64,000 nucleotides of DNA from an uncultured Candidatus Nitrosopumilus sp. (lineage in GTDB: Archaea; Thermoproteota; Nitrososphaeria; Nitrososphaerales; Nitrosopumilaceae). Location: positions 62,001 to 126,000 of the forward strand of contig CATOSM010000002.1 of NCBI GenBank assembly GCA_951812645.1. Direction: 5' to 3'. Positions 3,358-20,040 of the stretch are shown in pieces. The translations under genes and the position numbers were made by a program. The notes beneath the pieces were generated by a model, which saw only the letters and a list, made by a program, of their open reading frames with translations, made no database searches and was not told where the DNA came from. Each line of letters opens with the position of its first letter. Position 1 is the first letter of the stretch.

Positions 3358-3529
3358 TTGGTTTGTAGATTATCATTCCGTCAATTAGTTGAGTTACAAA
3401 ACTTGTGTTAGAATGAATTTCTAATTTTCTTGCAATCTCAATTGGAATTGAAATCATGCAGGTATTTCCTTTTTGATATGTTCTTCTGATGAATGTTTTT
3501 TTATGGTGTGTCTTTTTTTCATTATACAA
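3317..3529 (-). CDS. AbrB/SpoVT-type swapped-hairpin DNA-binding protein
   Basis: A 70-residue protein. The core RTYQKGNTCMISIPIEIARKLEIHSNT is interrupted by the usual hairpin turn, and its pieces KGNTCMISIPIEIARKLEI and MIIYKP match the AbrB fold: G-x-x-x-v-t-I-P-x-x-i-a-x-x-L-g-i then a basic strand. Such proteins are small transcription regulators or antitoxins that dimerise on DNA. Its start codon lies 3 nt from the left end of an IS5-family insertion (IS-A), so its native promoter has probably been displaced. Confidence 0.7.
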   Translation of the reverse strand: MYNEKKTHHKKTFIRRTYQKGNTCMISIPIEIARKLEIHSNTSFVTQLIDGMIIYKPIDTSKFKTYSKKY

Positions 3530-3531
3530 TC

Positions 3532-4398
3532 AACTTATCTTAAAACTAACCGTTTGGACAATATTTGATGATCATTTGGATCCATGAACCATTAGTTTCC
3601 AAACTGTACATGAAATTCACCGAAATAACAGACAGACAATGGGATATGATAGAGCCGTTGCTACCAAAACCTGCCGCCACAGGACGTCCAAGAAGCAATG
3701 ACCGGATGGTTTTAAATGGAATCATCTACGTGCCGGTTTCCGGATGCAGGTGGAGTGAGATGCCAAAGACATACGGTGATGACTCGACTGCCAACCTAAG
3801 GCTAAGAAAATAGCAGGAGTTTGGCATATGGAAAAAGATTTTGGGGCGTGCAATCAAATCCGCACACAGACAGGGAAAAACCAGCCTGGAAAAAATATCG
3901 ATTGATTCATCGTCAATTCCCTCCAAAAAAGGGGCGACGTGATCGGATTTGACGGGTTCAAGAGTCACAGGCACGAAATTACACGTTGCAGTGGACGGTA
4001 CCGGCCTGCCAGTATCGATTGTAATGAGCCCTGCAAACATTCACGACAGTACGAAATTCGCAGATGTGATGGAATCAATTTTGGATTTTGCAGATGATTC
4101 CATGATGGAACAGATAGTTTCAGTCTATGCAGACAGGGGATACGGTTCAAAACCAATCCGCAGTTATGCAAGATCAAGAAACATCATTCCGTGCATTCCC
4201 TTTAGAAAAAACAGCAGGACGGCAGATGATGATGCAGGCAAGGACAGTTACGACAGGACAAGATTCGTAGTGGAGAGGTTCTTTGCCTGGCTGAAAAACG
4301 GGTTTCACAGAACAAGACATGAAAGAAACGCAGGAAACTATCCCTGGCTGGTCAACATTGCGTCATTTTTGACGTATTGCAGGGTTTTAAGATGAGTT
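3532..4398 (+). mobile_element. IS-A: IS5-family insertion sequence, type 1
   Basis: An 867-bp element bounded by imperfect inverted ends, AACTTATCTTAAAAC on the left and the complement of AACTCATCTTAAAAC on the right. It encodes a DDE transposase on the plus strand, now broken. Left flank is the AbrB-like gene; right flank is the truncated 3' end of a surface-protein pseudogene, whose apparent C-terminus (THLKTLQYVKNDA) is antisense IS sequence. No target-site duplication is evident. Confidence 0.9.
3610..4395 (+). pseudogene. IS5-family transposase, type 1, broken
   Basis: Reads from MKFTEITDRQW through GRPRSNDR and SGCRWSEMP, then hits TAG at 3811-3813 in place of the Trp codon found in the other type 1 copies. 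After the A6G4 frameshift site (3925-3934) the -1 frame continues through the DDE catalytic segments HVAVDGTGLP, YADRGYG and FVVERFFAWLK to the end. The nonsense codon makes this copy inactive even if the shift occurs. Confidence 0.88.
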
Positions 4399-6287
4399 GA
4401 GTACACCATCTCACTTTTTACAAGCTCGCCATTTTTGTACACATCAACATACACACTCAGTGGGTCTCTTGGTGGTGGAGGAGGGGGATTGGGTGTAAAG
4501 TGCAGTGATACGTCTTGCGAGAATGCAGAGTTTCCTGAGACACTCAATGTCACCATTGCATACATTTGTCCCTGATCAGTTGCCACTGCAAAGGCTGCAC
4601 TTCCTGCATCAGCAGCTATGCTTGCAAGACTTCCATCGGCATTAAAGTCAGAATTGTCTGCAGTCACTGGTGGTATTGGCTTTCCTCCTGTAACATCAGG
4701 AAGATCCTGCAGTCGTATGGTTGCACTGATTCCATTTACACTCATTGTGATTTTGTCAGTGTTTGGAAGTATTGGGATAAAAATAGCATCACCTGCTTGG
4801 TAATTTCCATCAAGGTATGGAATTGCAGTATTTCCTACTGATACTTTGTCAATTTGGGCATCAACTGAAAATGGCAGCCTGACATATGCAAATGCAGTGT
4901 ATGCCCTATCATGCCCATCATCGATGTGAAGAGTTTTGTCATTTATTGTATCAAAGATTATAGTGCTAAAGCTTCCGCGATACGACATAGAGTCTGGATA
5001 TATCTTCAAGATGCTACCTGGAGATATGTCATTTAGCAAATCCACAGAGTTTGCAGTCAGGCTTATCTACCCAGACGGAGATGTCATTCCTCTTGTTCCA
5101 ACAAGATTATTCTTTACAACCTCGTAGGGCATGTTTGGCTCTAGTCCGGACACCTCAAACATCACATCAACATTTGGATCAAAGGTCTCACCCTTGATTG
5201 TTATGATTCCTCCATTCAGTTGGGCAGTTATGTATGTGATTCTGGAGTCATGAACAGTGTGGAATTTTTCAAAGTTCGCTGTAACACCCATTACGACTGG
5301 CCCACCGTTTTTATCGTATACCCAGTGTTGAAAGTCAGATACTGTGTTATAGTTTACACGAAACAATTTTCCCCCAGATGGCAAACTAATTTTTGCAGAT
5401 TGAGCGTCGGTATTATCTCCGATAACTCTAAAGTCGCCTTGGCTGTCTTTTGTAGTTACAAGATCAGAGGTAACTGTCTGGGTGCTCTGGCTGCTTATCC
5501 CTTTTCTTCCCTTGCAGCATTTGCCGTGATAGTACTCTGCGCTCCAGCTCTGTTTGTACTCAAAGATTCCTGTGACATCAGAACTGGATGCATCGGCGCT
5601 TACCAGCACATCAAGGCTTGATGGTGTTGGGTTACACCTGCAGTGATGAAGCAGGAATCCTCTTGAATTATCATATTGTACCTTGGTTAAATCAATCTCT
5701 GTCTCCAAGACCTTTAATTGATTTCCAGATGTTACAGTACCAGAAAGCCTTACCTGTTGGTTTTGTAAATCATTTATCTTTAGTAGAATTTTTCCAGTCC
5801 CAGAGATGACGATTCCGTTATTGGTCATAGACACAGATGGTTTGCCGCTAAGAACTTTTGATGCAGAATATCCCAATATGTTTGAAGTTTGAGAAGTTAC
5901 ATCAATCAGAGAATCTGATTTGTACTTGTATTTTTTGCTAAATTCCGGTATTGTTACTGCAACAGATTTATCATCATCTAACACTACTGCTACAAAATCA
6001 GAGGGAGGATCAACTTCAGTGTAACTTTTGAGGGAATCTGCCGTTCCAGTTATTCCCTGTCCTTGGATTACCTGGCCTGCAAGATCAAGCGTACGAAATG
6101 TTCCACTACTCCCAAACACGCCACCGCTTCCCTGTCCGTTGTTGTTGGACTCTTCAGATGTTTGTTCTGCTACAAAGACATTACCAAGGTCTGTGACAAT
6201 CTGAATCTGCTGTGCATCAGCTGATGGCATCCATGATCCTGTAAAGACAATCATCCATGCAATTGCAATGTATAGTTTTTTTCTCAT
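4399..6287 (-). pseudogene. Secreted surface protein, amber stop and IS-truncated
   Basis: One long frame starting MRKKLYIAIAWMIVFTG (a clear signal peptide ending SADAQ) is interrupted by TAG at 5067-5069 and then continues in the same frame (ISLTANSVDLLNDI...) until IS-A removes its 3' end after KSEMVY. Without the stop the product would exceed 625 residues: beta-rich, extracellular, with a proline run near the end (PNPPPPPPRDP) typical of archaeal surface proteins and a CRC/CCKGRKG cysteine cluster near residue 240. The preceding gene encodes a pilin-like protein, so this may have been part of a surface appendage. Two independent lesions support pseudogene status. Confidence 0.75.
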
Positions 6288-6325
6288 TGCAATACAAGAA
6301 AAAAATTGGTTTAAGGAGTAAAGTT

Positions 6326-6682
6326 CTAGGACAAGGAGTTTACTTTTTGGGAGAGTGCCGATGCAATTGAGTCATCAAGACTTGAGGTTCTAAATGAGCT
6401 AATCTCTGCATCTAGGACCTCACGCAAGACAATGTTTCCGCCATCATCAACAACTCTGATCTCTTTTATTCTCGTAGTCTTGCCCCAGTCATTTTTGATG
6501 TTTAGTTGACCGTCTGGGTTCAGCGTGACCTTGATGTTTTCTTTGACCTTGTCGTTTTGGATTGCAATAGAATCTGCTGCAGTCACTGAAAATTGCATTT
6601 GATTAGCAGAAGCACTCAGGATTGCACCCATTACCACTATTCCTAACAATGCTATGCCAGCTGCAACAAAAGGGCTTGCCAT
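6326..6682 (-). CDS. Pilin/archaellin-like secreted protein
   Basis: A 118-residue protein starting with a 25-residue hydrophobic helix (MASPFVAAGIALLGIVVMGA) and continuing with a beta-rich extracellular part. The N-terminal helix followed directly by a soluble domain resembles archaeal type IV pilin-like subunits, but no obvious class III cleavage motif precedes it. It lies between a T4SS-accessory-like gene and the large surface-protein pseudogene on the same strand, with 38-44 nt gaps, so the three probably form one operon. Function is inferred from topology only. Confidence 0.5.
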   Translation of the reverse strand: MASPFVAAGIALLGIVVMGAILSASANQMQFSVTAADSIAIQNDKVKENIKVTLNPDGQLNIKNDWGKTTRIKEIRVVDDGGNIVLREVLDAEISSFRTSSLDDSIASALSQKVNSLS

Positions 6683-6726
6683 ATCAATAAAAAAGAAATT
6701 CCACTTAAGGAGACAAATCTAAAAAA

Positions 6727-7560
6727 CTAGATGTCAGCATCGTCAATTGGTTGCTGCGGTCCTTGGGAATATGGAACGTATGATCCTAATGAAATTCGCA
6801 GTCTTGTGACATCCTCAGGTAGAGAAACAATACTTAGTAGTTCGATTCCACTCAGTATTGGAAATGTTTTTGATGATACAATTGGTTTTTTGGGATGAAA
6901 TGTTGTAAATGGAAATTTGTTTTTGACATTACAACACTTTCTTAATGAAAATTTCTTCTGCGAAATAATCTTTGTTCTGCTGATTCCTTCTGGAACTGTC
7001 ATCTTCAAAAGATCAAAAGTCTTTTTGTCCTGTACTGCAAAAAATATCTCGCACTGGTAAAACTCTGCATCTTTTGCTTTTTGTTTTGCAATTTGGATAA
7101 AGTTTTGCAGCTGAGGACCAATCTTTCCTTGGTCTGACTTTGATTCCTTGCTTGAAATCCAGCTCCACATAGATGCAGCTCCGTATGGATCCTTTTTTGC
7201 ATAACATGCTACAAGACATTCTTCTTTGTGGATCTGTTCTAGTACATTGTAGAGTTGGCTTCGTTGCTCCTGCAGTACTATTGGAATTGCATAGTGTCTT
7301 TTCAGTTTCAGTCTTTTTACATGTGGAAAAACAAATTCCGGTTCTGGGATTTCAACTGCTTCTATCTGATTAATCTTTGCAAAGAGGCTTTTTTCAGAGT
7401 CGTTGGTTCTAATGATGATTTTTGTTCTGTCTTCTTTTCTGTAAAAGAAAAATGCAACATCGCTTACTTTTGCAAGAATTTTCCTTAGATGCCAATCATC
7501 TTGGAAGCTTTGATATGGTCTTAGCTCAAGCCAACTTGTTTTAATCGATTTAGAACCCAA
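6727..7560 (-). CDS. Hypothetical protein, possible VirB4/HerA-associated N-terminal-like domain
   Basis: A 277-residue soluble protein starting at TTG 7558-7560. The segment FPILSGIELLSIVSLPEDV near residue 235 resembles the LS-x-E-L-A-x-L-x-H-L-P motif found before the ATPase core of VirB4/TraG-like and some HerA-like proteins, but no Walker motifs follow, so it would be only the accessory part. It is divergent from the gene at 7609 and heads the surface-protein operon. The resemblance is weak; call it hypothetical. Confidence 0.5.
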   Translation of the reverse strand: MGSKSIKTSWLELRPYQSFQDDWHLRKILAKVSDVAFFFYRKEDRTKIIIRTNDSEKSLFAKINQIEAVEIPEPEFVFPHVKRLKLKRHYAIPIVLQEQRSQLYNVLEQIHKEECLVACYAKKDPYGAASMWSWISSKESKSDQGKIGPQLQNFIQIAKQKAKDAEFYQCEIFFAVQDKKTFDLLKMTVPEGISRTKIISQKKFSLRKCCNVKNKFPFTTFHPKKPIVSSKTFPILSGIELLSIVSLPEDVTRLRISLGSYVPYSQGPQQPIDDADI

Positions 7561-8007
7561 AACCAGTACGAAAGGATTTGTCGCTTAAAAGGAATCATTT
7601 CATATTTTTTGTTGGAATACAAGAACAATGCATTCAGAGTAGGAACAATTTTGCTAGTTCTTTTTGGAATGACTACATCCTTTATTGAATTTCAGACGGC
7701 ATCATCACAGTTAGATCAGTTTGGTGATACAAAACAAAGCGATATTCAGTTAGTTGACCTGATTGACAGAAAGGGAAAATCTGCAACATGGCATCTCGGA
7801 AAAGGACTAACCCCTGGTGATCAGTTCACCTACAAAATTTGTGACATGATTCTCATTATTCCTGAATCTCCTGATCATTGCTATCAAATTAGTCTAGAGT
7901 TTGTTGACATCTTGAAGAGCCCACATGGAGATGTGTGGATAATCCAAGCTGTAATGGATCATCAAGACAAGAAAACGTACTCTATCTTTCAGATATCTGC
8001 AACTACC

Positions 8008-8881
8008 AACTCATCCTAAAACCGATCATTTTGTAAATAATTCATGACAATCGGGATCCAAGAATGACCCTGCCGATGTATCCTTCATGATTCACAAGGA
8101 AATGTCAGACATTCAATGGAACACGGTTGCATCACATCTGCCAAAGCCTGCAAAAACTGGCAGGCCAGGATGCAATGACAGAAACACAGTCAACGGAATA
8201 TTGTTTGTCCTAACAACCGGCTGCAGGTGGGCAGACATGCCGGACAGATACGGTTCAAAATCCACCGCGCATCTGAGATTCTCAGAGCTGCAGCAAAAGG
8301 GAATATGGAAAAGGATTCTGTCAGGACTGATCAAATCCGCACACAGGCAGGGAAAAATCAGCCTGCAAAAAATATCGATTGATTCATCGTCAGTTGCCGC
8401 CAAAAAAGGGGGGACAAAACAGGATATGACGGGTCCAGGAAGATCCTGGGCACAAAGATTCACGTTGCAGTAGACAGGACAGGACTGCCAATCCCAATCA
8501 GGGCCAGCCCTGCAAATGTCCATGACAGTACGAAATTCATTGATGTGCTAGAGAACATCTCAGAACTTGTAGGTGATGGTTTGATACGGGAGATCATCTG
8601 TGTATGCCGACAGGGGATACGATGCGGCATACATCAGAGACTATCTGAGATCCCATGGGATTGACTGTTGCATTCCATACAAAAGGAACTCAAGGAACGT
8701 TGCACAAAACAGGAATCAAAAAAATTATGGCAAGACAGGGTTTGTCGTAGAGCGGTTCCTTGCCTGGCTCAAGTGCGGACTTTACGGGACGGCAGTCAGA
8801 TACGAAGGGAACTGTGACAACTATCTTGGATTTGTGTATATGGCATGCGTCATGATGCATTGGAGGGTTTTAGGATAAGTT
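8008..8881 (+). mobile_element. IS-B: IS5-family insertion sequence, type 2
   Basis: An 874-bp element with ends AACTCATCCTAAAACCG on the left and the complement of AACTTATCCTAAAACCC on the right. Both flanks belong to the same interrupted gene, so it is an unrecombined insertion and defines the element ends well. Type 2 differs from type 1 in the N-terminal half of the transposase and in the sequence inside the left end. Confidence 0.92.
8087..8878 (+). pseudogene. IS5-family transposase, type 2, broken
   Basis: ORFA (MIHKEMSDIQW...) ends at GRSWAQRFTLQ in frame 0. The -1 frame entered at A6G6 (8402-8413) continues as ILGTKIHVAVDRTGLP but is lost near 8600, where two bases present in sister copies are missing (ATCATCTGTGTATGCC against ATCATCTCAGTGTATGCC). 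The final segment YADRGYD...FVVERFLAWLK is intact in another frame. Probably inactive. Confidence 0.88.
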
Positions 8882-9652
8882 CTACATTTGACATTACAAC
8901 TGATGGAACAAGCATTCCATATGCAGACTCTGTTTCAAGAACCATATTCTGGATTGGTAAATTTGCAAATGAACTTGATCAAAAACCACTTGCAGTAGGC
9001 AAGTCATGGGGAAAGGTTGCAACATATACAGCGCCAGCTACTGAACTTGTTGTTAAAAATACACAAGTCATAGAGTTTAACAATGAAGGACCATTTCATA
9101 CCTTTGTTCTTGGATACAACCTAATTGAACAAAGCACCATTAACATAAATGAGGATTTTCCTTTTCCCATCAAGTCAGTAATCTACAAGCCTACCATATC
9201 ACACCAGAACATTCCGCTGCAATTTACAATTGATCTAGTCAATCATACCAATACAAGTAATTTTCTTGATGATTTTTCGCAGCAAACATTTCCCAATCAA
9301 AATGAATTCGCTGAATCACTAAATGATTTTGAAGAGGATTTGTTAAATGAAAACTTTGAGAATATTGATGCGAGTTACATAGACAATAATGAACTAAACA
9401 TGACATCAAGTCATGAAGATAATTTAAACTCTATAGATGCCAATTATTTAGATGCGATAGATCTGGAAGAATTGTTTGAAATGTTTCTAAGCGAGCACTT
9501 TGGAGATGATAATCCTGATGAGCAAATTATCGACTTTGCAGTTTTTCTTGATTTTCTTAATGAGACAGATTCATTAATTGATGAGCAAAACTTTACTGGT
9601 CCTTGAGACATGCATTATTTCTGATATTGGATCGATGATCTAGGTAGCAACA

Positions 9653-9730: not shown

Positions 9731-10372
9731 ATGAAAACAAGCATAATAGTAGACAAACTGAGACTGGAAAAAAAAGAGTTTGTCACATCAGAGGAACTAA
9801 AGGAGTACTGCAAAGTATTCAAAATTGATCACAAATCAGCCATACATTATCTCACAAAAATGAAGTATCTAGTAAGGATATTCAGAGGCATATTCTATGT
9901 AAAGACTCTTGAAGAGTTTAAGCTTGGCACCACAAGTAAGTATAATCACCTAGAACTAGTCGCCAAGGGACTTGAGTCAAAGGGAGTAAAAAACTGGTAC
10001 TTTGGTTTGCATACTGCATTGAAGCTAAACAACATGACACATGAGTACTTTACTATTGATGAGGTGATTAGCGACACCATATTCCGGTCAAAACCAATCA
10101 ACATTGCAGGAAACAAGTTCAGGTTTGTGAAACTTTCTCCAGTGTTACTCAATTTTGGCATAAAGAAAGAAAAGATGTATCGTTACTCTGATCCTGAAAA
10201 AACTATTTTGGATTTTATCTATCTTTCAACATATGATGGTATGCCTGCGGAGAAGATCGTTATGGATGTAGCAGATTGGGCTGAAAATATTTCTAAAAAC
10301 AAAATAAGAGAATATTCTGCTAATTATCCAAAAACGGTTGCAAAGATTGCATCGGAGGTTGTTACCAAATGA
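9731..10372 (+). CDS. abiEi: AbiEi-family antitoxin
   Basis: A 213-residue protein: an N-terminal winged helix (about residues 5-60; VTSEELKEYCKVF, SAIHYLTKMKYLVRIFRGIFYV) followed by the AbiEi C-terminal antitoxin domain with the usual segments NWYFGLHTALKLNN, RFVKLSP and YSDPEKTILDFIYLSTYDG. It overlaps the downstream toxin by 4 nt (ATGA), the typical coupling. Paired operator-like repeats directly upstream suggest autoregulation. The architecture is canonical for AbiE toxin-antitoxin and abortive-infection systems. Confidence 0.85.
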   Translation: MKTSIIVDKLRLEKKEFVTSEELKEYCKVFKIDHKSAIHYLTKMKYLVRIFRGIFYVKTLEEFKLGTTSKYNHLELVAKGLESKGVKNWYFGLHTALKLNNMTHEYFTIDEVISDTIFRSKPINIAGNKFRFVKLSPVLLNFGIKKEKMYRYSDPEKTILDFIYLSTYDGMPAEKIVMDVADWAENISKNKIREYSANYPKTVAKIASEVVTK

Positions 10373-11301
10373 TCAATTTAGATTTTGTAACTCAGTTATC
10401 CTCAACACTCAGAATTGAAAGAACGCATATGGTAGAGAGGGATGTGATCCTCCACCAGATTCTAACTGACCTGTCAGATGACAAATTCTTTTCAAACAAC
10501 TTTCTCTTCAAGGGCGGAACATGTCTGATAAAACATCATCTAGGCTACTTTAGATTCTCCGAAGATGCAGATTTTACGTGGAAGGATCCATCAAGGTTCA
10601 AGGACAAAACTGCAAAGGAGATAAGAAAAGAATTATCATCAACCATAAACATGATAGGAAAAATTTTAGAACAGATTTCATCAACAAGAGGACTAGACTT
10701 CAAATGCTCAAAGGATAACACGGATTACGTAGAGCTTGGTGGAAGCAACAAAATGTGTACATTCAAAATGTGGTATTATTCGGTAGTTTTGAAGAAAAGG
10801 TTTTTCATAAAAATACAGATAAATTTTGTAGAAGAAATGTGCACAAAACCCAAGATGGGTCAACTAAAAAGTCTCGCTACTGGCAATAACGAAGAGCAAG
10901 CTCTATTCCCAGAATATTTGGAATATTCAAAAACTATTCCTTTTGATGTTTATGATATCAGAGAGATACTGAGTGAAAAGATTAGAGCATTGATTACAAG
11001 AAAGGGGGTCAAAGCAAGAGATTTTCTTGATGTTTTTTTCATTCAAAAAGATCTGGGCATCAAACCAACAGATGTTGAGAAATGTGTAATAAAAAAGACA
11101 AACCACGTCCTCAACCTCTATTCCAAATACAGAGAGAATCTGAAGGCAAAAGAGAAACTGGTAGAAAAAGGCACCATATTCGAATGGGGTGCAGAAAGAG
11201 AACTGTTACTAACAGAAATCAATGAGAAAGAATTTCAAAAATTTGTAAAGGAATTAACTGAATATCTTAAAGCATTAATCAAGAAATTTGTCTTATCTTA
11301 A
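10369..11301 (+). CDS. abiEii: AbiEii-family nucleotidyltransferase toxin
   Basis: A 310-residue protein with the AbiEii/DUF1814 signature: LFKGGTCLIKHHLG, then RFSEDADFTW (S-E-D-x-D metal-binding aspartates), and the later motif EKIRALITRKGVKARDFLDVFF, which matches E-K-l-x-A-l-x-x-R-x-x-x-R-D-l-x-D. AbiEii-type toxins add nucleotides to tRNA acceptor ends and block growth until neutralised by AbiEi. The length fits the family and all key residues are present, so this pair looks intact, unlike most of its neighbours. Confidence 0.88.
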   Translation: MINLDFVTQLSSTLRIERTHMVERDVILHQILTDLSDDKFFSNNFLFKGGTCLIKHHLGYFRFSEDADFTWKDPSRFKDKTAKEIRKELSSTINMIGKILEQISSTRGLDFKCSKDNTDYVELGGSNKMCTFKMWYYSVVLKKRFFIKIQINFVEEMCTKPKMGQLKSLATGNNEEQALFPEYLEYSKTIPFDVYDIREILSEKIRALITRKGVKARDFLDVFFIQKDLGIKPTDVEKCVIKKTNHVLNLYSKYRENLKAKEKLVEKGTIFEWGAERELLLTEINEKEFQKFVKELTEYLKALIKKFVLS

Positions 11302-11389: not shown

Positions 11390-12886
11390 CTAGTCAACAG
11401 TAGAAAGTCCCAGCCACCTGAGAATTCTGTTTGATTCCCTCCAGAGAATTATTCCTGCAATGAGCCCCAGTATGGCATACCAGATTATGTCAGATTCATC
11501 AAACTTGATGTTTTCTTCTTTTGATTCCATAGGATCCAAGGATATAGATGATCTTCCTCCCCAGATATTGTAGGCCTCCAATGTAACTGATTCATTGTTT
11601 GGAAGAACAATGCTGCAGCCAGTTTTGCATCTTCTTTCATACTCTTTTCCATCAACTAGTATCTGCTCGATTGGACCAAAGTTTTCGTCATGATTAATGA
11701 TTACTAGATTCTTGTTGTTCTCATCTCTTGTTACATTTAGAATGTTGTCCTGATCAAGATTTACAACAAACAGATGATTAGAGTAAAACTGGAATGTCTG
11801 GGCATCAAAGATATGAGACTTGGCAATCATCTGTAATTTCAATGTCATAAGGTGAGAGTGCTCCAAACCCAAAGTTTAGTGGTATGTCAAGCTCATCCTC
11901 GTATGGACTTTCAAAAGCAGAATTGTTTCCAAATGTATGGTTTGAATTTGAAAAAAATGTTTCTGTATAGTTTGGAAACCATGTTGATGTGAGACTTGAC
12001 TTCAAGTTAACATACCCTGTTCCATTCTTTTGGTTTACATCTTTTTCATACATGTCATCAAGTGTAATGTCAGAAAATCCTACATCTTGTGTATCATGAA
12101 ATATCTTTTTGCAGACATAGTCTTGAGTATATTCAGATCCTTTTTCAAATTGAGGACTCATCACAATTGATACAGGTATCTGGTTTCTCTGTCCTTCTGA
12201 ATCAGTTACAATTACTTTAACTGATGTGTGAAATTTTACTCTTGGATAGACATAGTCATATTCAGTTACGTTTGAAATCTCTTTTCCTCCAAAGTGTACT
12301 GATTGCAATGAATTGTCTATTGTTACATCATGGGATCTTTCCTTTAGCATAGTTCTTAGAATTGGATAGCTGAATATTATTTTGCCATAACCAGATTTTA
12401 CAAACATTGCAGAATCTTTTTTGTTGCTTGCAGTATTTTCTTGTTCAGCTTGAAAAGAACTTGAATCAAAAGTTACTTCTTTGTTGCATCTGTCCTCAAG
12501 TCTTTGCAATATTATGGATTCGGCAGAGTTCCAGGTCATGGTTTCATTGAGAAATATTTTGTTGACAGGATCAAATGCATACCCTGAATAATCAAATCCG
12601 TTTAGCTTGCTTCGTCTAAGTTCATGAATGCCTGAAGGATCATCAGGTCCACCACCTTGTGAGCCAAAATAATGAAGTGCTACTGCAGGCCTGTTTCCAT
12701 ATGCCCACCAGTGATTGTCCTCTAGCATGTTGTAGGGATAATTCTGGCATACAGGGTCATATCGTACCAGCAAGGCATCCGTAGAGCCTGATGTGGTATT
12801 GAGGTATCTTTCAATATTGAATAGGTCAATTCTATATTGGAAGGAGTGAGCTCCAAGGTCCTTTTCTGATGTGCCGTTGTATATCC
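11390..12886 (-). pseudogene. C-terminally anchored surface protein, frameshifted and 5'-truncated
   Basis: Two overlapping minus-strand frames make one protein. The first runs from the IS-C boundary (WIYNGTSEKDLGAHSFQYR) to DIEITDDCQVSYL, ending at 11805. The second continues from about 11820 as FDAQTFQFYSNHLFV to 11390 and ends in a membrane anchor (IIWYAILGLIAGIILW) and a short basic tail. The extracellular part has several N-glycosylation-type sequons. IS-C removed the 5' end, so no native start remains; the apparent ATG is in the IS end. Confidence 0.7.
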
Positions 12887-13757
12887 AACTCATCTTAAGA
12901 CTAGCCCTTTGGACAGTATTTGATGATCATTTGGATCCATGAACTGTTAGTTTCCAAACCGTACATGAAATTCACCTAGATGACAGACAAACAACGGGGC
13001 ATGATGGAACCGTTGTTGCCAAAACCTGCCGCGACAGGACGTCCAAGAAGCAATGACAGAATGGTTTTAAATGGAATCATCTACGTGCCGGTTTCCGGAT
13101 GCAGGTGGAGTGAGATGCCAAAGACATACGGCGATGACTCAACTGCCAACCTAAGGCTAAGAAAATGGCAGGAGTTTGGCATATGGGAAAAGATTTTGGG
13201 ACGTGCAATCAAATCCGCACACAGACAGGGAAAAATCAACCTGCAAAAAATATCGATTGATTCATCGTCAATTCCCTCTAAAAAAGGGGCGACGTGATCG
13301 GATTTGACGGATTCAAGAGAGTTACAGGCACGAAATTACATGTTGCAGTAGACGGTACCGGCCTGCCAGTATCAACTGTGATGAGTCCTGCAGACATTCA
13401 CGACAGTACGAAATTTGTAGATGTGATGGAATCAATTTCAGATTTTGCAGATGATTCCATGATGGAATAGTTTCAGTCTATGCAGACAAGGGATACGATT
13501 CAAAGTCAATCCGCAGTTATGCAAGATCAAGAAACATCATTCCGTGTATTCCCTTTAGAAAAAACAGCAGGACGGCAGATGATGATACGTACAAGGACAG
13601 TTACGACAGGACAAGGTTTGTAGTGGAACGGTTCTTTGCCTGGCTGAAAAATGGGTTTCACAGAACAGGAATCAGATGTGAAAGAAACGCGGCAAACTAT
13701 CTCGGGCTGGTTAACATTGCGTCATTTTTGATGTATTGCAGGGTTTTAAGATGAGTT
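12887..13757 (+). mobile_element. IS-C: IS5-family insertion sequence, type 1
   Basis: An 871-bp element with ends AACTCATCTTAAGAC (left) and the complement of AACTCATCTTAAAAC (right). Its flanks are two unrelated truncated genes: a surface protein missing its 5' end (left) and a J-domain protein missing its 3' end (right). That is not a simple insertion; deletion or recombination with another copy has probably occurred here. Confidence 0.9.
12965..13754 (+). pseudogene. IS5-family transposase, type 1, broken
   Basis: ATG AAA TTC ACC is followed by TAG (12977-12979) at codon 5. Downstream coding resumes (MTDKQRGMMEPLLPKP) to the A6G4 shift site (13280-13289) and in the -1 frame through HVAVDGTGLP. 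A deletion near 13469 (ATGGAATAG, where IS-A has ATGGAACAGATAG) breaks the frame again before YADKGYD. Inactive. Confidence 0.87.
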
Positions 13758-14125
13758 GATAGTAATCCTGTTGAGTTTTCAGTATCTGAGGCATTTTTCC
13801 AGATTGAAATAGCCTCATCATATGATGTAGCGTCATCATACTGCAAATAATCAAATGCATTCTCATCTACAGTATCAGAAATGTTAAACCAGAAAAAATA
13901 TTCATTTAGATTGTTCTTAATATTTTGGAGTCTTTTTAATGCGTCATTTACAGATTCTTCAGTTCTAAATTTATCCGGCAAATGAATATCCAAATCATAT
14001 TCTGGATAATCATCAATTTTTAGCCTGTTGATTATCTCTTTGGATCTTTTTAAGATATCTTTTTGACTAGCACTGCTATCTAATCCAAGAATACGATATG
14101 CATTATTTGCTATTAAATTTGACAT
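13758..14125 (-). pseudogene. J-domain-like protein, 3'-truncated by IS-C
   Basis: The ORF starts MSNLIANNAYRILGLDSSAS; residues about 8-75 look like a divergent J domain (AYRILGLDSSASQKDILKRS, then a long helix). The usual HPD tripeptide is not seen. Native sequence ends at STGLLS where IS-C begins; the rest of the ORF (THLKTLQYIKNDA) is antisense IS. Its ATG is 6 nt downstream of the Hsp70-like gene stop on the same strand, so the two were an operon. It would supply the co-chaperone partner. Confidence 0.6.
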
Positions 14126-14131
14126 CTAATT

Positions 14132-16640
14132 TCACTTGGTAAGACCTGAATGAGTATCCTGGTGATCTTTAGAAGGCAATAGGTTATTCAATTCTACTGC
14201 CCATCGTTTTAATTCATCAATATCTTCTGCTTCAATAGCTGCAATTCCTTTTGCAATACAATATTATGCCTCTTGTTCATTGGTAAAGTTTCCATTTTCT
14301 CCAACACTTACAATATATCTAAAATAGTCAACACAGTAACCTAAATTTGAAAATAGAATTTTACTTTCCAAGTTATCCAGTTGTTCATTTATCCGAATCA
14401 TCATGACTTTATTTTCAGATTTAATTGCCATTTCACTATCTGATTGTATGCTCTCAAATTGTTTTGTTATGTCATCTAACTCTTCAGGGTTTGCATATTC
14501 TTGAATTATTTTTTGAAGACTTTCAACTCGTGAATTATATTCTTTAATTAATTTAGAGATGGCTTTTTCTTCATCATTTTTATCTAATAAAATTTTGAGA
14601 TCTTTTAATTGCTTCTCAGCTTTACGTTGCTCATCTTCATCAGTACTTACAGCGCATTTTTCCACTGAAGCAATAATATCATCAATTTTTTTACTTTCCT
14701 CAACAGTGCAATTATCAATAGTTTCTTTTGCTCTACATCTTTGAGATTCTAATTCAGATGATATTGCTTCTGGATCTATCACTTCATCTTTTTCTGTTTT
14801 ACGTGCATTGAGTGTCATATCTATTAAAGGGATATATGCAGTAACAAAGACTTCTCTGGACTCATTATACTCTATAGTTAATTCAACTGGCGTTCCTTCA
14901 GGTAGATCATAAGGTAAATCTTTTCCTTTGATTCCCAATTTACATAGGAATGTATTTCTGTCTGGAATTTCAGATTCTCCTTCAACAATATCAATATCAA
15001 TATCCAGTGAAGAATCTTCTCCTTTTTTGAGTATTCGTGATGTTTTGTAAATATCTAGTGTCTTTTTCAAGGGAAGAATGGATCCTTTTTCAAGAATATT
15101 TTCACAAACATCTTTAATAATATTAGATGAAATATCTCTTTTAGAAATGACTACATTAATTGAGTGAGGTATTGGGGCTCTAGAAACTGAAAGTCCATGA
15201 ATAATTGAGAATGAATCTGTAGAAATTTTAACAGGGTTTCCTTTCTGATCAAACACATAAACCCAGAATAAGTTTTGTTTGTTTGGTTCTATATTGATTG
15301 TATAATAGAATTTTCCTTGTTTGATTTTTGTTTTAGCTCCTGTAAACGTACCGCTATCTGATTGAATTTGAATGTAGTATTGATCTGATTCATTAAGACC
15401 TTCGATAATTCCAGTTACTGATTCTTCAGTATCAGAGGTTAATGAAGAATAATTTAGTGATATTATTTACTCCTTTGAGATCTTTTGTCTTATTTGATAA
15501 AAATTCTTTTGGAATTTCTTTACTCATCGCAAATATGCAAGCACCGTGTGCTACAACTGTTAATGGATCTACTGTTGAATCAACTTGTATCTTTAGATCA
15601 TTTTCAAGTCTTTCTTTTAGCTATGACATTTGTGTAGGTCCACCAACCAGAATTAGTTTTTTTACTGACTCTGTTTTCATTCCAGATTCTTTCAATGTGT
15701 CTTTTGTTAATTCAATAGTTCGATCTATTGTAGGTTTGATTAATTTTTCAAGTTCTGAACGCGATATATCGATTGAGAATGATATTTCTTCTCCAGAGTC
15801 ATCTTTACCAATATCCTCAATTTCGATTGTTGTTTTATCATATTGAGATAATTCAATTTTTGCTAATTCAGCACTGTATTTTAGATGTGAGAAAATATTT
15901 TGATATTTTGTATTCTTTCTTGTGAAATTTGTGAGTTGGTGTTTTTCTAAAATTTTGGGTACAATTATGGTATCCACTATATCCCAATCAATGTTTTTTC
16001 CACCTAGAAAATTATCTCCATTATGACCAAGTACAGAAAGTATTCCATCTTTGGAAGATATGAGAGCAATATCAAATGTGCCGCCTCCAAAATCATATAT
16101 CAACCAATTTTCATTTTTAGCATTCTGAAAACCATATGATACTGCAGCCGCAATAGGCTCTTGCAACAAGACTACATGTTTGAATCCTGCTAGATTTCCT
16201 GCCTTCTTAGTTGCCTCTGATTGTAAGACAGAAAATGCAGCAGGTATTGTAATTACAGCTGCAGTAGTATCAAAATCAGGATACTTTCTAAGAATATCTT
16301 CTTTAAGTTCCTTGAGAATTTCAGACGAAATTTCTTCGGGAGTCATTTTTGTTTTAGCTCTTTCAAAAAACACAGTTTCAGGTGTACCCATCAATCTTTT
16401 TATTTCGGCTTTGAAATTTTTATCTTCATTTTTTGAACCATACTTGTACAGGTATTCATATGCCTTTTGCCCAACTATTTTATTTCCTGTTTTATTAAAA
16501 CCAAAAACTGAAGAAGTGTATCCTACTCCACCAGGTTTTTTTATGATTTCTATCTTCCCGTTAACATTTACAGCAACAGATGAATTTGTAGTTCCTAAAT
16601 CTATACCAATTGTAATAGTAGATCTATCCATTTTACTCAT
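14132..16640 (-). pseudogene. Hsp70 (DnaK-like) chaperone, broken
   Basis: The N-terminal ATPase domain is clear: GIDLGTTNSSVAV, YDFGGGTFDIALIS and LILVGGPTQMS. TAG at 15621-15623 interrupts it, after which the same frame continues LKERLENDLKIQVDSTVDP and VVAHGACIFAMSKE until about 15460. The frame then shifts to ISLNYSSLTSDTEESV and the substrate-binding-like part (14264-15256). A TAA at 14264-14266 is followed in frame by 43 more sensible codons to TGA 14132-14134. Repaired, the protein would be about 835 residues, longer than housekeeping DnaK and with a divergent C-terminal half, so it is likely a specialised Hsp70. Three lesions make this a pseudogene. Confidence 0.8.
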
Positions 16641-16849
16641 GTATAAGATCCCTGCTATTCTTTTCTAAAATTATTACTTTACCCTTGTGAACCACTTGGT
16701 TTTTGTGTAGGATTGTTGGCTCTTTTGTTTCTTTAATTATAGATTCTAAAATATCTGAAGATTTCTCTACAGCAAGAATATCTAGATTTATTCCTTCATT
16801 AAATTTTTGATTAGTATGATCAACTATCTCAATATCATTTTTGTCCAAG
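16633..16849 (-). pseudogene. Fragment upstream of Hsp70, possibly GrpE-like C-terminus
   Basis: About 71 residues, cut at its 5' end by IS-D; the apparent TTG start is 2 nt from the element. It overlaps the Hsp70-like start by 8 nt, so it was translationally coupled. The order (acidic stretch, SSDILESIIKETKEP, then VVHKGKVIILEKN) loosely resembles the C-terminal beta domain of GrpE nucleotide-exchange factors, which would complete a chaperone trio with the Hsp70 and J-domain genes. That identification is weak inference. Confidence 0.35.
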
Positions 16850-16852
16850 AAC

Positions 16853-17331
16853 TTATCCTAAAACCCTCCAATGCATCATGACGCATGCCAGATACACAAA
16901 TCCAAGACAGTTGTCACAGTTCCCTTCGTATCTGACTGCCGTCCCGTAAAGTCCGCACTTGAGCCAGGCAAAGAACCGCTCTACGACAAACCCTGTCTTG
17001 CCATGATGTCTTTGATTCCTGTTTTGTGCAACGTTCCTTGAGTTCTTTTTGTATGGAATGCAACAGTCAATCCCATGGCATTCCAGATAGTTTCTGACGT
17101 ATGCCGCATCGTATCCCCTGTCGGCATACGCTGAGATGATCTGCCGCATCAAACCGTCATCTACAAGTTCTGAGATGTCTTCTGACACATCGATGAATTT
17201 TGTACTGTCATGGACATTTGCAGGGCTGGCCCTGATTGGGATTGGCAGTCCTGCCCCGTCTACTGCAACGTGTATTTTTGTGCCCAGGATCTTCCTGAAC
17301 CCGTCATATCCTGTTTTGTCCCCCCTTTTTT
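16853..17331 (-). CDS. IS-D transposase ORFB (catalytic half, reached by -1 frameshift)
   Basis: From the A6 run (T6 at 17326-17331 on the plus strand) the -1 frame is open without interruption: RGDKTGYDGFRKILGTKIHV, then AVDGAGLPIP (first Asp), YADRGYDAAY (second Asp), FVVERFFAWLK (Glu) and the end VMMHWRVLG. A conventional start inside (ATG of MSEDISEL at 17186-17188) would lose the first catalytic Asp, so expression presumably needs the frameshift. The fused ORFA-ORFB product would be about 270-280 residues, normal for IS5-family DDE transposases. Confidence 0.8.
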
Positions 17332-17646
17332 GGCGGCAATTGACGATGAATCAATCGATATTTTTTGCAGGTTGATTTTTCCCTGTCTGTGTGCGGATTT
17401 GATTGCACGCCCCAAAATCTTTTTCCATATGCCAAACTCCTGCCATTTTCTTAGCCTTAGGTTGGCAGTCGAGTCATCACCGTATGTCTTTGGCATCTCA
17501 CTCCACCTGCATCCGGAAACCGGCACGCAGATGATTCCATTTAAAACCATCCGGTCATTGCTTCTTGGACGTCCTGTGGCGGCAGGTTTTGGTAGCAACG
17601 GCTCTATCATGTCCCATTGTCTGTCCGTTATTTCGGTGAATTTCAT
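17260..17646 (-). CDS. IS-D transposase ORFA
   Basis: An intact N-terminal half (128 residues from MKFTEITDRQWDMIEPLLPK) with the DUF4096-type helix-turn-helix region found in IS5 transposases (GRPRSNDR, SGCRWSEMPKTYG). In frame 0 it runs past the A6G6 site and stops after GRSWAQKYTLQ. Alone it would be a DNA-binding fragment that could act as a transposition inhibitor, as in other two-ORF IS elements. Confidence 0.8.
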   Translation of the reverse strand: MKFTEITDRQWDMIEPLLPKPAATGRPRSNDRMVLNGIICVPVSGCRWSEMPKTYGDDSTANLRLRKWQEFGIWKKILGRAIKSAHRQGKINLQKISIDSSSIAAKKGGTKQDMTGSGRSWAQKYTLQ

Positions 17647-17733
17647 GTATAGTTTGGAAACTAATGGTTCATGGATCCAAATGATCATCAAATATTGTCC
17701 AAATGGTTAGTTTTAAGACGAGTTGATGATATA

Positions 17734-18762: not shown

Positions 18763-20040
18763 TTATTTTTTCTCCTTCATCAGTGAGTTGATGATTTGCT
18801 GCTGTTGAGCTATCAACTCTTGCTGTTTTGCAAACAGTGATTCCAAATTATCTACTTTCTTAGTTACTTTTCTTTGAAGCCCTTTTGTCTTTGCATTCTC
18901 TTTTACTACTATCTTCTGGGCAATCTCGTTATCCAAAATAAATCCACATTTTGCACATCGTTTTTTGTCTGAGCTATTGTCTTTCATACATCTAGGACAA
19001 GCCACTGGATTTAGAAACCCAGAATCGATATCGTCTTTCTCAGTTAGAAGACCATATCGTTTTCTGATTGCCTTGTCCTGATCTGAGTTTGCCAAGTGAA
19101 CGTATCTTGAACGCATGTTGGAGCTATGTACCCAGTTTCCATGTATGTCAGTTATTTTAGAACCAAACGCCTTTTCTACATTTGTAAGAGATGTATGTCT
19201 TAGCAAATATGGCCAGACATGTTTTTTCACTCCGCCTGCTTTTGCAGATTATCTTACTATGCGCAGTAGTTGAGAGTAACTTATTCTTCCAGTCTTGTTG
19301 TTCTCAAACCAAAGATATGCCGTAGGGTTGTCGTTTTCTGGATGTTCACTTAGCCATTCCAAAAGCGGTCTGAAACTTGGAACTACTGTTAATTGCTTTG
19401 GACCTGTCTTGCCGTAAGTGCTTATCACACACCACTTGTCTTTGATGACTACATCTCCTACTGTCATGTTCATAAGTTCTGCTGGTCTATGTGATGCTTC
19501 ATACAAGACGTATAGTAGAGCACTGTCTCTTTTGATGTGGTGACTTGTTTTTCTAACACCGTTTAGCATTGCCATAAACTCATCATTTGTAACAAGGTCG
19601 TTGGATCTTATTTTTTCAAATCTGTCTCTGAACTGCCCAGGTGTAATCCATGTAACTTCATCACAATATTCAGCATTGTTTCTCCCCTTTACGATGAGGT
19701 CTCCTGTCTTTGCAAAATGAACTAATCTCTTTAAACCTCTTAATTGATCACGTTTTGTTGTGTTAGAAAGATCTTCTTGAACTATTTGTGACACAATTTG
19801 TTTGATTTCTTCTTTTGTCCAAGTTTCAATCAGAGTGTCATCTTTCCGACTCAAAAGCCGCATACTGGTATATCCATAATCTCTCATCCTGATGTAGCTG
19901 GCATTTTGTAGTGCTAACGCGTCTAGAAACTTTACAGCTATTTGTCCATTTTTGTATTTCAGCAAACTTTTTCTGTAACGATCCACCTTCTTTTTAGAGA
20001 GGTAAATGTCATCAGAGTTTTTCTCATTCATGTATTGCAA
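18763..20040 (-). pseudogene. Tyrosine recombinase (integrase) with zinc ribbon, in-frame ochre stop
   Basis: One frame of about 425 codons is interrupted by TAA at 19249-19251 between LLRIVR and SAKAGGVKKH. Before it lie the SAM-like N-terminal domain and the Arg I box (YEASHRPAELMNM); after it the LLRHTSL box (H-x-x-R-type), HGNWVH and Tyr in RYVHLA. It ends with a CPRC...CAKC zinc ribbon and a coiled coil. This layout fits thaumarchaeal XerC/D-like integrases of genomic islands. With the stop, the catalytic Tyr half is separated, so the island is probably no longer self-mobile. Confidence 0.85.

Follow-up and report, generated by a model that had tools for sequence, protein, structure and literature searches.

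Remains of a horizontally exchanged Hsp70 cassette in a broken archaeal conjugative element, and a putative role of its family against mobile genetic elements

The 64,000-nucleotide stretch of an uncultured Candidatus Nitrosopumilus genome analyzed here (contig CATOSM010000002.1, positions 62,001 to 126,000; hereafter the window) contains, on the minus strand at ∼13.7–16.85 kb, what remains of a chaperone cassette, now dead, that was exchanged horizontally and formed the cargo of a thaumarchaeal integrative and conjugative element (ICE) that insertion sequences (IS) have cut. The cassette moves as a self-sufficient Hsp70 set, usually accompanied by an AAA+ protein, and is found repeatedly among defense genes and in prophages. 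Its most likely function, with belief and doubt about evenly balanced, is that of a putative chaperone-based system directed against viruses or other mobile genetic elements (MGEs). The window copy is of modest interest alone; the interest lies in its family.

Three genes make up the remnant: the 3' fragment of a GrpE-like gene, a broken Hsp70 gene and the N-terminal fragment of a J-like gene. The intact relative is found in Thaumarchaeota archaeon Centralia_MAG_119 (G334:C18, JAJPGX010000034.1; hereafter G334), where the Hsp70 is intact at 839 aa. The features of the window cassette, with the open reading frames (ORFs) of the flanking IS, are as follows.

16849–17660, minus strand: IS5-like insertion cutting the GrpE-like gene (transposase ORFs and sequence)
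16848–16633, minus strand: C-terminal 71 codons (16636–16848) of the GrpE-like protein (head/beta-wing region), 5' part lost to the IS; 70–72% aa identity to the 213-aa GrpE-like protein of G334
15621–16640, minus strand: Hsp70 nucleotide-binding domain up to the in-frame TAG; PF00012 E=3e-65, 80% aa identity to the intact G334 Hsp70
15257–15620, minus strand: Hsp70 continuation holding the 2-nt deletion at ∼15456, in which the inserted beta-domain begins (alignment with G334)
14264–15256, minus strand: Hsp70 C-half (inserted domain, substrate-binding beta-domain, helical lid) up to the in-frame TAA; 65% aa identity to G334
14132–14263, minus strand: final Hsp70 codons between the TAA and the natural stop (translation and alignment)
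13760–14125, minus strand: N-terminal ∼122 codons of the J-like protein, without the HPD motif, truncated by an IS; 64% identity to the 584-aa J-like protein of G334
12960–13759, plus strand: IS5-like insertion cutting the J-like gene, ∼90% identical to a copy at ∼3520–4400 (transposase pieces)

This layout bears out the sequence-only reading of the region, which had described a three-gene operon with a divergent Hsp70 of ∼835 residues, a J-like gene 6 nt downstream, an overlapping upstream fragment, a TAG, a TAA and a frameshift in the Hsp70 gene, and IS at both ends. The Hsp70 gene runs from 16640 to ∼14132, with the TAG at 15621–15623 and the TAA at 14264–14266; alignment with the intact relative identifies the frameshift as the 2-nt deletion, and the remaining indels are all multiples of 3. 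The end of the GrpE-like fragment overlaps the Hsp70 start by 8 nt, and the J-like ORF begins 6 nt beyond the natural Hsp70 stop, at 14125. Because the last ∼20 codons of this ORF (13697–13759) are IS sequence, the true J-like fragment is ∼122 aa long. Sequencing errors as the only source of the lesions were rejected, since IS cut the cassette at both ends and the ICE genes around it are likewise broken. Before its breakage the Hsp70 gene was constrained, as indicated by dN/dS ratios against the intact relative of 0.09 in the ATPase domain and 0.16 in the C-half, with synonymous change near saturation; the Pfam HSP70 match and the identities to that relative place the gene far from chance.

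The cassette Hsp70 displays the hallmarks of its superfamily, namely an actin-like ATPase domain with phosphate motifs and catalytic residues, and a substrate-binding domain (SBD) of the beta type. The catalytic motifs GIDLGTT, KR.MG, QEP.AA and D.GGGT.D are invariant across four relatives, archaeal and bacterial, and the C-half family aligns with the DnaK SBD-beta (hhalign 93.5%, E 2.2e-7). Approximately 120 residues are inserted between the ATPase and the SBD, and inspection of the alignment shows no evident linker of the usual VLLLDV type. A decayed duplicate of the ordinary dnaK-dnaJ-grpE set would account for the joint presence of Hsp70, GrpE-like and J-like genes, but this explanation is strongly disfavored, its probability being close to negligible: the host genome (2.2 Mb, 7 contigs) retains one intact DnaK that is just 36% identical to the window Hsp70, and the cassette proteins have the extra domain and lack the HPD motif. 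Furthermore, in a tree whose long branches and few outgroup sequences call for caution, the cassette Hsp70s form one side of a 100/100 branch, with DnaK and a second Hsp70 of the G334 ICE opposite. A plain dnaK duplicate was rejected on the strength of that identity and that branch, and the intact relatives are thus not plain housekeeping DnaK. Scored as a fragment against the DnaK equivalog model, the window Hsp70 reaches 234 bits (cut-off 648).

The suggestion that the upstream fragment is GrpE-like is supported by profile comparison: the family matches a housekeeping GrpE profile built from the phylum over the head region (hhalign 76%, E 2.3e-5), against 0.1–0.4% for unrelated control pairs. 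The intact G334 protein (213 aa) has a zinc-ribbon-like N-terminus and matches PF01025 at E=0.0075. A low-confidence AlphaFold model of a GrpE-like protein (pLDDT 54) has a helix-then-beta topology, and with it Foldseek found no match under E=2. PDB sequence searches with the GrpE-like and J-like proteins gave no meaningful match. The downstream protein had been called J-domain-like, and only part of that description stands. Its start resembles a J domain (N.YRILGL; window residues INRLKIDDYPEYD), but it has no HPD, the match to the J domain profile is weak (hhalign 25%, over 31 residues only) and the end of the ORF belongs to the IS; the AlphaFold model, at a pLDDT of 39, is too poor for use. 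A plasmid search with the archaeal J-like protein returned weak Streptomyces matches only.

The intact cassette in the G334 ICE comprises four genes, GrpE-like, Hsp70, J-like (584 aa) and an AAA+ ATPase (Pfam AAA, E=9e-34), so the three-gene set proposed from the window holds for its three members and gains the AAA+ ATPase as a fourth. Its carrier also encodes a tyrosine integrase (PF00589), a VirD4/TrwB-like ATPase, large secreted proteins, VirB4-like and FlaI/T2SSE ATPases, and TadC-like, prepilin-peptidase-like, VirB6-like, ArdC-like, ParB-like and TFB proteins, some of these names having been assigned by eye from translations. VirB4 and VirD4 ATPases, TFB with ParB, and an integrase are thus all present, and the complement is that described for thaumarchaeal ICEs (Krupovic et al. 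2019, PMC6563490), in a paper whose main text makes no mention of Hsp70, DnaK, DnaJ or chaperones. The G334 ICE differs from those elements in carrying two Hsp70 loci. The second Hsp70 (L007:11830-13869) is extended at its C-terminus by ∼170 aa that contain a zinc-protease-like HELLH motif and match no Pfam entry; next to it is encoded another J-like protein, which lacks HPD and has predicted membrane segments.

Comparison of the G334 element with the window by tblastn reveals, across 4.4–20.0 kb, damaged counterparts of the integrase, of the VirD4 C-terminus and of several secreted or pilin-like proteins, and the region is therefore a wrecked ICE. The remnants are as follows.

18763–20040, minus strand: tyrosine recombinase (integrase), split in two ORFs; 43% to the G334 integrase over 371 aa
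17791–18252, plus strand: C-terminal remnant of a VirD4/TrwB-like coupling ATPase; 27% to residues 683–859 of the 862-aa G334 protein
11393–12893, minus strand: broken large secreted ICE backbone protein; 39% to G334 L008:4508-6682, in two pieces
9731–11301, plus strand: AbiEi/AbiEii pair inside the element remnant; PADLOC AbiEi E=3e-54, AbiEii E=4e-68
7609–9606, plus strand: another ICE secreted protein, split by an IS insertion at 8087–8878; 34–39% to G334 L008:2058-3098, in two pieces
4392–7560, minus strand: other ICE backbone remnants (IS-cut secreted protein, pilin-like ORF, ORF like L008:3159-4274); tblastn 28–31%

The mobile island of the sequence-only reading is accordingly this wreck, and the toxin-antitoxin genes noted beside the cassette are the AbiE pair. 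VirB4 was not found in the window's genome and VirD4 survives as a C-terminal remnant only, which falls short of a functional conjugation apparatus. Within 14 kb there are four IS5-like copies, belonging to at least two types (∼3520–4400, 8087–8883, 12960–13759 and 16849–17660), each interrupting or abutting an ICE gene. Just beyond the ICE remnants that were mapped, at 1768–2964, there is a second AbiE-like pair (nucleotidyltransferase DUF2204/AbiEii, E ∼5e-6).

Cassette and carrier have different histories. The cassette genes of the window and G334 are 64–80% identical, whereas the ICE backbone genes are only 27–46% identical; the cassette was therefore exchanged between ICE lineages after their backbones had split, which upholds the earlier proposal of horizontal carriage. 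A relative of VirD4 occurs in 21 of 250 family genomes, and the cassette is absent from all 20 sampled loci around the related gene; the same stretch there holds metabolic, stress, storage or secreted-protein genes, functions that were judged by eye and, at several loci, on short contigs. This marks the cassette as optional cargo and not ICE machinery, and a conserved place in the ICE backbone was rejected. These data also bear on the idea that the cassette is a conjugation helper that assembles the ICE secretion machine or else unfolds or protects the proteins being transferred. The G334 order GrpE-Hsp70-J-AAA-VirD4, co-directional with gaps of at most 22 nt or overlaps, is what a helper would show, but the loci without the cassette, the very different divergence of cassette and backbone, and the occurrence of bacterial homologs in Tn7 elements and phages without adjoining conjugation genes make this role improbable.

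Searches by tblastn and pattern scans recovered homologous cassettes from proteobacteria, Haliscomenobacter and four IMG/VR contigs; an IMG/VR search with the archaeal Hsp70 C-half yielded no relative. Sequence comparison detects a relationship between the bacterial GrpE-like proteins and the archaeal one, and the gene immediately precedes Hsp70 in Shewanella, Aeromonas, Vibrio, Polaromonas, Sinorhizobium, Aminobacter and three of the IMG/VR contigs (L108, L109, L111). Haliscomenobacter is the sole exception to this adjacency among the sampled lineages with both genes in view: no GrpE-like match was found for its cassette, which consists of Hsp70, a kinase-AAA fusion, TerB and a J-like protein 32–33% identical to the archaeal one. 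An AAA gene is common to the archaeal, Haliscomenobacter, Shewanella, Vibrio and Polaromonas cassettes. The J-like proteins of Sinorhizobium and Aminobacter have a predicted membrane segment, and gammaproteobacterial cassettes have a separate gene for a peptidoglycan-binding protein that resembles the C-terminal part of these J-like proteins. Identical TnsA and TnsB accessions indicate that one Tn7-like element carries the cassette on the Shewanella (L044) and Aeromonas (L049) plasmids; the Aeromonas Hsp70 is annotated as two ORFs. The Hsp70 of S. medicae T10 (L052:7002-11404) is interrupted by ISNCY and is another decayed copy.

Genomic neighborhood analysis places these bacterial cassettes repeatedly on mobile elements and beside defense genes. 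The Shewanella and Aeromonas cassettes are cargo of Tn7-like TnsABCDE, and that of Vibrio lies near a tyrosine integrase. In Polaromonas the cassette is flanked by Zorya and BREX; in Haliscomenobacter it adjoins BREX, in Sinorhizobium CCBAU 05631 a restriction endonuclease with Fic/RelE genes, in S. medicae and S. meliloti a helicase and ATP-dependent endonuclease pair with VapC, and in Aminobacter AAA/helicase genes. Among the IMG/VR contigs, L108 has Septu PtuA/PtuB, HmaA/HmaB and WYL genes next to the cassette, L109 (a prophage) has phage tail genes and a GajB-like (Gabija-like) helicase, L110 (also a prophage) has a phage portal gene, and in L111 the cassette lies in an integrase/DUF932/WYL island. 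The search for intact homologs proposed from the window recovered both the G334 relative and bacterial relatives in defense surroundings. An anti-defense or superinfection-exclusion module, serving its own mobile element against the host, would also travel on mobile elements, and the G334 ICE has an ArdC-like antirestriction gene as well; relatives also occur, however, in multi-system defense islands with Zorya, BREX or Septu, which favors protection of the host or the element, and the anti-defense role appears decidedly improbable.

The suggestion that the set is a defense or conflict module is therefore retained in a qualified form, with the function putative: it is favored by bacterial relatives that neighbor Zorya, BREX, Septu, Hma and Gabija-like genes or reside in prophages or Tn7 cargo. 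By hand count, which takes clustered genes as independent, ∼25 of 97 cassette-flank genes are defense genes versus 18 of 235 control genes (p ∼2e-5). Several observations weigh on the other side. Control stretches of the same plasmids are themselves defense-rich (Hachiman, AbiE, BREX, type I restriction-modification), and with genes that are not independent the enrichment is suggestive only; defense context is an association, which is not function. No obvious killing effector was recognized in the cassette, and no AAA gene is listed directly adjoining the Sinorhizobium and Aminobacter cassettes. Homology between the archaeal/Haliscomenobacter and the proteobacterial J-like families is not detectable (hhalign 0.2%). 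The cassette is also rare in archaea: a search of 398 phylum genomes with the Hsp70 C-half found one relative besides the window, as did an eight-sequence profile and a search of 250 family genomes, and a widespread thaumarchaeal gene set was rejected on these counts (2 of 398 and 2 of 250). Finally, the slot in sister archaeal ICEs holds mainly metabolic and stress cargo. In the variable-cargo thaumarchaeal ICEs (L080-L099), the stretch beside the integrase and VirD4 carries a stress set (L091), PHA-synthase-like genes (polyhydroxyalkanoate; L087, L089), thioredoxin and membrane genes (L080, L083) or isochorismatase and MFS genes (L081).

The main rival, prompted by the stress genes that sister ICEs hold at this position, is that the cassette is stress-adaptation cargo, an accessory chaperone set helping the host to withstand heat, metal or oxidative stress. 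Pointing this way are the genes for Hsp20, universal-stress, Dps-like, PHA-synthase-like and thioredoxin-like proteins and transporters in that slot, together with the completeness and constraint of the DnaK/DnaJ/GrpE-like set. A general stress chaperone would not, however, be expected to have an extra domain, J-like domains without HPD and a long divergence from DnaK, nor would its bacterial relatives be expected so repeatedly in prophages, in Tn7 cargo and beside Zorya, BREX or Septu; stress adaptation is a possible but doubtful explanation. The antiviral or anti-MGE function remains the preferred one. The broader proposal, that a complete dedicated Hsp70, GrpE-like, J-like and AAA+ machine constitutes a putative defense system common to bacterial prophages, Tn7-like transposons, defense plasmids and archaeal conjugative elements, is advanced more tentatively.

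Known systems resemble the cassette in part. The GAP1-N2 and DO-GTPase predicted conflict systems (Kaur et al. 2020, PMC7159879) likewise combine an Hsp70 of their own with GrpE and a J-related protein; unlike them, the cassette, in which no GAP1-N2/DO GTPase or tubulin was seen, has an AAA+ ATPase and an HPD-less J-like protein and is found in prophages, Tn7 cargo and ICEs. CnuD of CoCoNuT (PMC11090510) is an Hsp70-like protein with nucleotide-binding and substrate-binding domains in a predicted defense system, but its ATPase residues are described as degenerate whereas those of the cassette Hsp70 are conserved, and no McrB/McrC homolog was identified in the cassette. The cassette AAA protein scores E=8e-32 against the PADLOC IetA models of IetAS; this match is to the general AAA domain, and no IetS protease was found in the cassette. 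No PADLOC v2 model is specific to the Hsp70, GrpE-like or J-like proteins, which gave no matches, and the AAA and kinase matches are at domain level. Housekeeping DnaK-DnaJ-GrpE offers three matching roles with detectable SBD-beta and GrpE homology, but the cassette departs from it in its 36% identity, extra beta-domain, missing HPD, added AAA+ ATPase and mobile distribution. A 2026 survey of archaeal immunity (PMC12988326) leaves Hsp70, DnaK and chaperones unmentioned. It is plausible that the family is an unrecorded chaperone-based conflict system spanning two domains of life, with a possible overlap with Hypnos (named in PMC12447246). Elsewhere in the window, an ORF at 46–825 has a weak PLD-like domain match (E=0.0017).

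A working model can be drawn from these components. Phages exploit host chaperones, and some immune proteins sense host chaperones. The Hsp70, with its ATPase residues kept and its extra beta-domain, would be cycled by a dedicated nucleotide-exchange factor together with a J-like partner of non-canonical type. It may recognize a particular client, probably a protein or assembly made by a virus or MGE, or else a client in the cassette's own J-like or membrane partner. The client would then be handed to the AAA+ ATPase for remodeling or extraction, if the steps follow this order, and the presumed outcome would be a blocked invader or the firing of a membrane-linked response, membrane-linked partners possibly serving as the output in some lineages.

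For the organism, the window's unexplained ‘second Hsp70 operon’ becomes the cargo of a dead conjugative element. For the family, a self-contained mobile set of Hsp70, GrpE-like, J-like and AAA+ proteins would, if the proposal is true, represent a defense architecture unlisted in current defense libraries, and it raises the testable question of whether an Hsp70 cycle may act as a sensor of infection.

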